The notes under the pieces were generated by a model. It worked only from the letters and a program-made list of their open reading frames with translations, did no database searches and was not told the origin of the DNA. From the NCBI GenBank assembly GCA_003220685.1, contig QHTE01000051.1, positions 6,556 to 70,555 on the forward strand: 64,000 bases of DNA, written 5' to 3'. The DNA comes from Candidatus Rokuibacteriota bacterium (lineage in GTDB: Bacteria > Methylomirabilota > Methylomirabilia > Rokubacteriales > CSP1-6). The translations under genes and the position numbers were made by a program. Of the stretch, positions 45,799-49,094 are shown piece after piece. Numbering within the stretch: position 1 is the first letter of the stretch; every line of letters starts with the position of its first letter.

Positions 45799-46005
45799 CT
45801 ATTTCTTCGCCGCCTCCGAAGCCTGAAAGCCGACCTTGTTGTGCGTGCCGTCGCACAACGGCTTGTTGCTCGACGCTCCACACCGGCAGAGCGCGATCCT
45901 CGCCTGGCCCGCCGTGTTGATCGGGGCTCCGGTCGGATCGTAGAGCTCGCACTCGCCCTCGACCAGGTACGGGCCGTTCGGCCGGGCTGTGATCTTGACG
46001 GCCAT
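45799..46005 (-). CDS. CDGSH iron-sulfur domain protein
   Basis: A 68-residue protein with the CDGSH [2Fe-2S] motif: C40-x-C42-x8-C51-D-G-x-H55, in CRCGASSNKPLCDGTH. The three-Cys-one-His ligand set is complete. The single domain fits the small bacterial mitoNEET-like redox proteins. The ATG at 46005 follows AGGAGG. It is divergent from the radical SAM gene at 46101. Confidence 0.92.
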   Translation of the reverse strand: MAVKITARPNGPYLVEGECELYDPTGAPINTAGQARIALCRCGASSNKPLCDGTHNKVGFQASEAAKK

Positions 46006-46087
46006 CGTGTGAGTCCTCCTTGGGGTTGAGCAGCGCCCATCAAGATACCACCATGATCGACCGGCGCGCCGCGGCCGGCGCGCGGGG

Positions 46088-46100: not shown

Positions 46101-47516
46101 ATGAGGGAGCCCGGCGCGATCTTGCTCGTCGCGTGCTACGAGCTCGGCCACCAGCCGCTAGCCGTCGCGTGGCCGGCGGCGTTTCTCGAGCGTGAGGGCT
46201 ACGCGCCGGCGGTGATGGACGTGTCGGTCGAGCCCTTCGATCCCGAGCGTGTACGCCGGGCGCGGCTGGTCGCGATCTCGGTGCCGATGCACACGGCCCT
46301 CCGTCTCGGCGTGGCGGTCGCACGGCGCGTGCGCGACGTGAACCCGACCTGCCACATCGCCTTCTACGGACTCTACGCGACGCTCAACGCGGGCCACTTG
46401 CTGGCGGGCCTGGCCGATTCGGTCATGAGCGGCGAGATCGAAGGGGCGCTGGTCGATCTGGCGCGGAACCTGGAGGGCGCGGGCCGACCGCCGGCGCCGA
46501 GCCGGCCCCTGCCAGTGCTCGCGAAGCTCGACTTTCCCGCGCCGAGCCGCGCGGCTCTGCCTTCGCTGAAGAAGTACGCGCACCTCGAGCGAAGCGGCGG
46601 GCGCGAGCTCGTCGGCTACGTGGAGGCCAGCCGAGGCTGCAAGCACCTGTGCCGGCACTGTCCGATCCCTCCCGTGTACGGCGGGCGCTTCTTCGTCGTG
46701 CCGGTCGAGGTCCTGCTCGCCGACATCCGCCAGCAAGTGGAGGCCGGCGCCACGCACATCACGTTCGGCGATCCCGACTTCCTCAACGGCCCCGGTCACG
46801 CCCTGGCCGCCGCGCGCGCCCTGCACGAGGCGTTTGGGGCGCTCACGTTCGACTTCACGGCGAAGATCGAGCACCTGCTGCGCCACCGCGATCGGCTGCC
46901 GGAGCTCGCGCGGCTCGGCTGCGCGTTCATCGTGTCCGCGGCGGAGTCGCTGAGCGACGCCGTCCTCGCGCATCTCGACAAAGGGCACACGCGCGCCGAC
47001 ATCGAGACGGCGATACAGCTCACCGCGGCAGCCGGCATCACGCTGCGTCCCACCTGGGTGGCCTTCACGCCGTGGACCACGCTCGACGACTATCGTGAGC
47101 TGCTGGACTTCGTCGAGACCAAAAGGCTCGTCGACGCGGTCGACCCGGTCCAGTTCGCAATCCGTCTCCTGGTGCCGCCGGGCTCGCTCCTGCTCGAGAG
47201 CCCGGCGCTGCGTCCGTTCCTGGGTGAGCTGGTCGAAGACCAGTTCTATCACCGCTGGACCCACCCCGATCCGCGCATGGAAGCGCTTCACGTAGCGGTG
47301 TCGTCCCTGGTCGCCGCCGCGGCCGACCGGCACGAGGACGCCGCCGTCACCTTTCAGCGGGTCTGCGAGCTGGCGGACCAGAGTGCGGGTGTGGCGCGGC
47401 GACCGATGGCGCCGCCGGCGGCCCGGCGCACGCGGCCGCCGCGACTGACCGAGCCCTGGTTCTGCTGAGCGGAGCCTACCGAGGGCCAGTTGGCCCTGGA
47501 ACGCAAACTCGGGTAA
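46101..47516 (+). CDS. CUAEP-tail radical SAM selenoprotein (predicted Sec at residue 456)
   Basis: A 471-residue protein read through an in-frame TGA at 47466-47468. Residues 1-120 look like a B12-binding-type Rossmann domain (ILLVACYELGHQPL...YAPAVMDVSV, AFYGLYATLN). The radical SAM cluster is C180-x3-C184-x2-C187 (SRGCKHLCRHC). The chain reaches RLTEPWFC (C455), then TGA, then codons for A-E-P-T-E-G-Q-L-A-L-E-R-K-L-G and TAA at 47514. The CUAEP tail with TGA as the U matches the radical SAM family I know as CUAEP/CCAEP-tail (seleno)proteins. If TGA were a plain stop the protein would end at 47468. The substrate is unknown. Confidence 0.82.
47479..47499 (+). promoter_or_regulatory. predicted bacterial SECIS element
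   Basis: Ten nt after the TGA a hairpin forms: CC-[G]-AGGGCC, loop AGTT (47488-47491), GGCCCT-GG. The apical loop lies 19 nt after the TGA, has G within its first two bases and a 6-bp upper stem. These are the recognised properties of bacterial SECIS elements that bind SelB. Confidence 0.7.
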
Positions 47517-47539: not shown

Positions 47540-47821
47540 ATGAGCGACGATTTGAAGACCCGTGTTCAGGAGCTGCTCGATTCCACGATCAACCCCGCGG
47601 TTGCCGGCCACGGCGGCTTTGTCGAGCTCGTCGACGTGCAGGACAACCGGGTCTATCTTCAGATGGGCGGCGGCTGCCAGGGCTGCGGCGCCGCGGACAT
47701 CACGCTGAAGCAGGGGATCGAGCGACTAATCAAGGAAGAGATCCCCGAGATCGCCGAAGTCCTCGACGCGACCGATCACTCCGCCGGGAGCAACCCCTAC
47801 TACACGCCGGGCAAAGCGTAG
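47540..47821 (+). CDS. NifU-like C-terminal domain iron-sulfur protein
   Basis: A 93-residue single NifU C-terminal domain (Nfu type) carrying the cluster-binding C46-x2-C49 (GGGCQGCGAADITLKQGIE). It would assemble or donate [4Fe-4S] clusters in the cytoplasm. It starts 24 nt after the extended radical SAM stop and is probably in the same transcript, so it may service that enzyme's cluster. GAGGTG precedes the ATG. Confidence 0.88.
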   Translation: MSDDLKTRVQELLDSTINPAVAGHGGFVELVDVQDNRVYLQMGGGCQGCGAADITLKQGIERLIKEEIPEIAEVLDATDHSAGSNPYYTPGKA

Positions 47822-47852: not shown

Positions 47853-49094
47853 GTGCGGGCGTCGGGGGCTCGGTTACTGCTTCTCCTGCCGACGACGACG
47901 TATCGCACCGAGGCGTTCGTCGAGGCCGCCGCCAAGCTGGGCGTCGAGCTCGTGTGCGCCTCCGAGCGAGCGAGCACGCTCGAGCACCTGGCGCCCGACG
48001 CGCTCGTCACGCTCGATTTCGCCGATCCGCTCGGGAGCGCCGAGACGATCGCGCGTTTCGCGGCGCGCCGACCGATCGACGCCGTCGTGCCCGTGGACGA
48101 CCTCACCACGGTCGCCGCCGCCGCCATCAGCCAGCGCCTGGGCCTCAAGGCGAACTCCCTGCCCGCCGTCGCCACCGCGCGCGACAAGCACGCGATGCGC
48201 CGCTGTCTGGCCGCGGCCGGCGTGCCGGTGCCGCGCTTCGGGCTCGTGGGCCTGGCCGACGATCCGGCGGCCCGCGCCGAGCGCGTCGAATTCCCGTGCG
48301 TCCTCAAGCCGCTCGCGCTCTCGGCCAGCCGCGGCGTGATTCGCGCGAACGACGCGCGAGAATTCGTGGCGGCCTTTCGCCGGATCGCGGCGATCCTCGA
48401 GAGTGTGGAGGCACCGTTGCCGGACGAGGCCCGCCAGGCACTGCTCGTCGAGGAATTCATCCCGGGACGCGAGGTCGCGCTCGAGGGATTGCTGATCGGC
48501 GGCACGCTCCACGTGCTGGCGATCTTCGACAAGCCGGATCCTCTCGACGGCCCGTTCTTCGAGGAGACGATCTACGTCACGCCGTCACGCCTGGCCGAGC
48601 CCGTTCAGGCCGCCATCGCCGCGGTGACTCGCGACGCATGCGCGGCGCTCGGGCTCACCGAGGGGCCGATCCACGCCGAGCTGCGCCTGAACGAGCGAGG
48701 CCCATTCGTGCTGGAGGTCGCCGCGCGCTCGATCGGCGGTCTGTGCTCGCGCACCCTGACCTTCGGGACGGGCCTGAGCCTCGAGGAGCTGATCCTCTGC
48801 CTGGCACTCGGCCGTCCCCTCGAATCGCTCGAGCGCGAGCGGCGCGCCGCCGGCGTCATGATGATTCCGATCCCGCGCGCGGGACGGCTCGCGTCGGTCC
48901 GCGGCGCCGACGAGGCTGCCGCGGTCGACGGCGTCGAGGAAGTGGCCATCACGATGCACCCGGGCCAGGCCGTGGTCCCGCTCCCCGAGGGCTGGCAGTA
49001 TCTCGGGTTCATCTTCGCCCGCGCCGAGACACCGGCCGCCGTCGAGCACGCCCTGCGCCAGGCGCACGCCCGATTGCACTTCGCCATTGAGTAA
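47853..49094 (+). CDS. ATP-grasp-domain protein
   Basis: A 413-residue ATP-grasp ligase. Features seen: N-terminal LLLLLPTTTYRTEAFVEAA, the ATP-binding FPCVLKPLALSASRGVIRAND, lid VEEFIPGREVALEGLL, and the metal-binding GPIHAELRLNERGPFVLEVAARSIGGL. This is the amino-acid/carboxylate-amine ligase class. Its natural ligand is unknown. GTG start 32 nt after NifU and 8-nt overlap with the kinase at 49087 place it in the radical SAM operon. Confidence 0.85.
   Translation: MRASGARLLLLLPTTTYRTEAFVEAAAKLGVELVCASERASTLEHLAPDALVTLDFADPLGSAETIARFAARRPIDAVVPVDDLTTVAAAAISQRLGLKANSLPAVATARDKHAMRRCLAAAGVPVPRFGLVGLADDPAARAERVEFPCVLKPLALSASRGVIRANDAREFVAAFRRIAAILESVEAPLPDEARQALLVEEFIPGREVALEGLLIGGTLHVLAIFDKPDPLDGPFFEETIYVTPSRLAEPVQAAIAAVTRDACAALGLTEGPIHAELRLNERGPFVLEVAARSIGGLCSRTLTFGTGLSLEELILCLALGRPLESLERERRAAGVMMIPIPRAGRLASVRGADEAAAVDGVEEVAITMHPGQAVVPLPEGWQYLGFIFARAETPAAVEHALRQAHARLHFAIE

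Follow-up and report, generated by a model that had tools for sequence, protein, structure and literature searches.

ArsL is a radical SAM enzyme of the biosynthesis of the arsenic antibiotic arsinothricin, and ArsL-type proteins encoded on plasmids of Pseudomonas, Alicyclobacillus and Priestia terminate in the motif RCCLKC. A cobalamin-type radical SAM fold that works without cobalamin is exemplified by AprD4, and mammalian thioredoxin reductase, with a selenenylsulfide in its C-terminal tail, provides a model for a redox relay. The NCBIfam collection contains the family NF040546 (rSAM_CUAEP), designated 'CUAEP/CCAEP-tail radical SAM (seleno)protein', with a curated cut-off of 500 and with a CxxxCxxC motif and a C[U/C]AEP tail as membership features.

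A CUAEP-tail radical SAM gene and its relationship to ArsL

The window analyzed here is a stretch of 64,000 nucleotides from a contig of a Candidatus Rokuibacteriota bacterium. It contains on its forward strand a coding region (46101..47516) for a predicted protein of 471 amino acids with selenocysteine at position 456. The reading frame extends from an ATG codon at position 46101 to a TGA codon at 47466-47468 that is preceded by codons for TEPWFC and followed in frame by codons for AEPTEGQLAL; if the TGA is read as selenocysteine, the product ends with ..RLTEPWFCUAEPTEGQLALERKLG. The top model for this protein was NF040546 with a full-length equivalog match of 675.6 bits, and both features of the family are present; the earlier note had named the CUAEP-tail family correctly. 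The motif C180-K-H-L-C184-R-H-C187 of the radical SAM [4Fe-4S] cluster is encoded at 46638..46661 (forward strand), and its three cysteines are invariant in an alignment of 52 homologues. The Pfam model Radical_SAM also matches the protein, and the B12-binding model yielded 29.2 bits in the N-terminal part, compared with a gathering score of 32.1. As judged from the sequence data, the gene almost certainly encodes a genuine selenoprotein of the NF040546 family. Since this family has already been named by NCBI, the selenoprotein status is not new and the gene in the window represents a further member, which differs from the family in no substantial respect but has a private frameshift in the last six or so codons.

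The next-best model was that of ArsL (NF040542), with 319.8 bits against a cut-off of 450. The window protein is homologous to ArsL over about 390 residues, with 32-38% identity to the plasmid-encoded examples, and a MAFFT alignment placed the vicinal cysteine pair of RCCLKC on C455-U456, although terminal cysteine pairs can align by default and the window protein has about 50 extra residues ahead of the pair. According to these comparisons ArsL is the nearest characterised relative, with the CUAEP family as its sister; the window protein may work in a similar way, and the shared vicinal pair suggests that it handles a soft substrate or intermediate in both families. In contrast to ArsL, which is not a selenoprotein and is encoded in an ars operon context, the window protein carries a CUAEP tail and its gene is devoid of such a context. 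Genes for an ars transporter, ArsQ or ArsN were not found near the CUAEP gene in 81 loci, and ArsM/ArsR-like open reading frames were detected in only one of them (L076), so that an arsenic-gene neighbourhood was rejected. As ars genes are essentially absent from the CUAEP neighbourhoods, and considering also the score below the cut-off and the different tail, the protein was not classified as ArsL proper.

The gene clusters encoding RCCLKC proteins on the plasmids of Alicyclobacillus and Priestia (L134 and L135) include genes for an ATP-grasp enzyme, an AhpD-like carboxymuconolactone decarboxylase, ArsM or ArsR, ArsN1 and a GTP-binding protein, and might specify an arsenical peptide pathway. 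The ATP-grasp enzymes of these clusters are about 25% identical to those linked with CUAEP genes, and a specific kinship between the two was therefore rejected.

The selenocysteine codon, its SECIS hairpin and the decoding machinery

The TGA codon at 47466..47468 lies within the segment 47457..47477 (both on the forward strand) that encodes the tail W453-F-C455-U456-A-E-P459. Among the 52 aligned sequences W453, F454, C455, E458 and P459 were invariant and position 456 was occupied by selenocysteine or cysteine; moreover, the pattern WFC[U/C][A/S/T]EP was found in nearly all of about 110 loci from GTDB and from genomes of the phylum, and the tail is conserved across at least ten phyla. In a search of 95 Methylomirabilota genomes, 63 contained matches above the NF040546 cut-off, and exactly one TGA was present in every tail-reaching match among the matches listed. 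The selenocysteine form occurs in Rokubacteria, Acidobacteria, Chloroflexi, Thermomicrobia, Poribacteria, Planctomycetes and others, whereas a cysteine codon (TGY) is present in nearly all homologues from Nitrospirota, in one from Nitrospinota and in those from Ignavibacteria/Bacteroidetes; the alignment comprised 63 distinct rows with TGA versus 31 with cysteine at this position. The apparent stop codon is almost certainly read through into a family-conserved tail, as the earlier note had proposed, and the relatives do finish in WFC[U/C]AEP. The placement of the Cys-Sec pair at the C-terminus holds insofar as the pair lies near the end of the protein; it does not occupy the extreme end, since at least a dozen weakly conserved residues follow. 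Two selenocysteine-form genes, with tails of the QLAL and QFGPL/QLGPL types, were noticed in at least one Rokubacterial genome (G058; contigs C120, the source of L108, and C135), which suggests that the copies are paralogues.

Downstream of the TGA codon, a bacterial SECIS hairpin is located at 47482..47497 on the forward strand, with a 6-bp stem AGGGCC/GGCCCU enclosing the loop AGUU. The published rules for such elements demand a loop of 3-9 nt, a stem of 4-16 bp, a spacing of 16-37 nt, a G as the first or second loop nucleotide and a minimum free energy of at most -7.5 (PMC13188914). All of them apply to this hairpin, which is spaced 19 nt from the UGA, has a 4-nt loop with G in its second position followed by U, and folds with -10.8 kcal/mol alone and with -13.0 kcal/mol as part of the segment 47479-47499, where the spacing, loop G and stem of a SECIS-like element had originally been noted. 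Folding a single 61-nt sequence from the region gave no significant result (z = -0.9), and for this reason comparative evidence was relied on instead. Defined by five or more base pairs around a loop of 4 or 5 nt, the helix was present in 63 of 63 distinct selenocysteine homologues versus none of the 31 cysteine homologues, and synonymous-codon shuffles within alignment columns retained it in a mean of 47 and a maximum of 52 of the 63 rows. Compensatory changes were observed at pair 2 (C-G to U-A), pair 3 (G-C to A-U) and pair 6 (A-U to C-G), and the loop G was found in all selenocysteine rows, with A in its place in 19 of the 31 cysteine rows. A search of Rfam revealed no matching SECIS family at the site 47482-47497.

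The 3' end of the gene is peculiar to the window. A comparison with the closest relative (L016; 88% identity) revealed one extra G, the window reading CCCTGGAACG and the relative CCCTGAACG. This +1 insertion at 47498..47501 (forward strand) is absent from all close relatives and is located just 3' of the SECIS stem, outside both stem and tail motif. The sequence in the relatives is ..LALNANSGRVTI-stop, which places their stop codon about 9 nt further on, and other Rokubacteria show the tail pattern ..GQLALxxNSGxVxI. Because of the extra G, the last six or so codons are shifted and the final residues as well as the TAA codon at 47514 are private to this copy; the insertion could be a true mutation or a sequencing or assembly error. 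The TAA codon at 47514-47516, regarded in the earlier note as the real stop, is therefore the stop of the window as it stands but looks wrong as the ancestral end of the gene.

The components for selenocysteine synthesis and insertion are encoded in the same genome, as anticipated. A tRNA-Sec was detected with 69.8 bits (gathering score 47) and was also reported by ARAGORN with the anticodon tca (UCA); the genes for SelA (588 bits) and SelB (363 bits), both over the curated cut-offs, share with it a stretch of about 5 kb of contig C73. SelD (335 bits, likewise over its cut-off) is encoded away from this cluster, and one in-frame TGA in the respective match (G000 C19:189837-190781) indicates that SelD is probably a selenoprotein itself. 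A tRNA-Sec was found in eight of nine related genomes tested, two of these nine apparently being repeats of the same assemblies. Among 40 genomes sampled outside the phylum of the window, the SelA score exceeded its cut-off in 13 of the 16 that have the selenocysteine form and in 0 of the 24 that have the cysteine form (Fisher p = 5e-8); the three exceptions are metagenome assemblies that may be incomplete.

These data bear on one alternative, namely that the TGA is an ordinary stop codon and the downstream similarity is due to chance or is vestigial. Standard annotation does halt at this codon: in Thermomicrobium roseum the annotated coding region WP_012643191.1 (RefSeq), belonging to the homologue at 5953-7389 of L132 (plasmid NC_011961.1), ends at the TGA and CUAEP continues in frame, so that the expected truncation by an automatic pipeline is seen in an actual record. 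An ordinary stop is at odds, however, with the maintenance of the AEP tail and the SECIS element across phyla and with cysteine at the same codon in genomes where SelA was not detected. The pattern of exchange between selenocysteine and cysteine rules this alternative out, and we assign it a vanishingly small probability.

The tail columns were removed before a phylogenetic tree was calculated, and three ArsL-type proteins served as its root; on this tree the distribution of selenocysteine and cysteine needs only three changes. The deepest CUAEP rows contain selenocysteine, which makes losses to cysteine in Nitrospirota and Ignavibacteria the simplest reading, and the exchange is seen in lineages in which SelA was not found. 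This reading is provisional since the loci were drawn from the best 80 database matches.

Conserved neighbours and predicted fold

Immediately downstream of the radical SAM gene the window encodes an Nfu/NifU-like Fe-S scaffold protein of 93 amino acids (47540..47821, forward strand; PF01106, 5.5e-25), a homologue of which adjoins the CUAEP gene in at least 20 loci from several phyla. It is followed by a gene for an ATP-grasp ligase with an L-amino-acid-ligase C-terminal domain (47853..49094, forward strand; PF13535 and PF18603). Such an ATP-grasp gene is the strongest genomic partner of the CUAEP gene: it was present nearby in 57 of the 81 loci, and among the 43 loci with flanks of at least 3 kb it was present in 33. 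The window ATP-grasp protein is about 44-62% identical to its counterparts in the other phyla sampled. Clusters of antisense-strand open reading frames obtained in the neighbourhood search were taken for shadows of the GC-rich ATP-grasp gene and dropped. On its upstream side the radical SAM gene directly adjoins a divergent gene on the reverse strand (45799..46014), which encodes a CDGSH iron-sulfur protein (PF09360, 4.2e-19).

The AlphaFold2 model of the window protein has a mean pLDDT of 92.5, with a value of about 68 (by block) for the tail residues 451-460. Its predicted architecture resembles a B12-binding-like domain combined with a radical SAM barrel, and the closest solved folds are those of OxsB, AprD4, TsrM and MgmA. 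AprD4, OxsB and MgmA have the overall fold in common with the window protein (TMq 0.58-0.68), whereas identity amounts to 15-19% and a CUAEP tail is not established there.

Possible roles of the Cys-Sec pair

In all likelihood the UGA codon at 47466 is decoded as Sec456 by tRNA-Sec and SelB under the direction of the hairpin at 47482-47497. The combined observations can further be arranged into a tentative mechanism, in which Fe-S clusters would be supplied by the Nfu-type scaffold protein. The enzyme would have an ArsL-like fold and cleave SAM at the cluster bound by C180, C184 and C187. Its C-terminal Cys-Sec arm would enter the active site, where it could hold a soft substrate, such as a metalloid or chalcogen, or shuttle an electron. 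An ArsL-like transfer of a 3-amino-3-carboxypropyl or other radical would then yield an unusual amino acid that could be ligated by the neighbouring ATP-grasp enzyme. We favour such ArsL-like chemistry, with the Cys-Sec pair acting on a soft or metalloid substrate or on a radical intermediate, while rating it as less likely than not.

Two other roles of the tail were considered. The Cys-Sec pair might form a selenenylsulfide and serve as a redox relay, either to reduce the Fe-S cluster or to restore a thiol in the active site; this corresponds to the redox-active pair of the earlier note, and we rate it as less likely than not. The vicinal position of the two residues close to the C-terminus and the Fe-S or iron-handling neighbours (Nfu, CDGSH and YggX-type) are consistent with such a relay, but none of the conserved neighbours of the CUAEP gene was recognised as a reductase gene, and in ArsL, an enzyme acting on As(III), the matching alignment position is occupied by a vicinal cysteine pair, which suggests substrate binding. 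Given the alignment of RCCLKC with the Cys-Sec pair, binding of a substrate or metalloid is no less plausible than a redox role. Alternatively, the protein might be a cobalamin-dependent radical SAM methyltransferase or catalyze a reaction of a related kind, and its tail might act on the substrate. The nearest solved folds and the N-terminal B12-binding-like domain point in this direction; the Pfam score for this domain lies below the gathering score, however, and the AprD4 fold can function without the cofactor, and we regard a cobalamin enzyme as unlikely.

If the ArsL-like chemistry is extended to the family as a whole, the CUAEP proteins might constitute a conserved, largely selenium-dependent sister branch of ArsL in an unrecognised pathway, in which a SAM-derived radical would meet a metalloid or chalcogen held out by the Cys-Sec arm, and the ATP-grasp enzyme would conjugate the resulting amino acid; this proposal is speculative and distinctly unlikely. 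A 2026 review of prokaryotic selenoproteomes contains neither NF040546 nor CUAEP in its text (PMC13188914), and by this silence the family appears to be under-described outside NCBIfam. As in T. roseum, annotation pipelines can truncate a CUAEP enzyme at its key residue. The use of selenocysteine extends to a functionally uncharacterised enzyme family that is found across Rokubacteria, and its function can be tested directly thanks to the kinship with ArsL, the invariant WFC[U/C]xEP tail and the ligase of the ATP-grasp type linked to it. If the proposed pathway exists, it would span phyla of soil and sediment, with selenocysteine in Rokubacteria, Acidobacteria and Chloroflexi and with cysteine in Nitrospirota and others.
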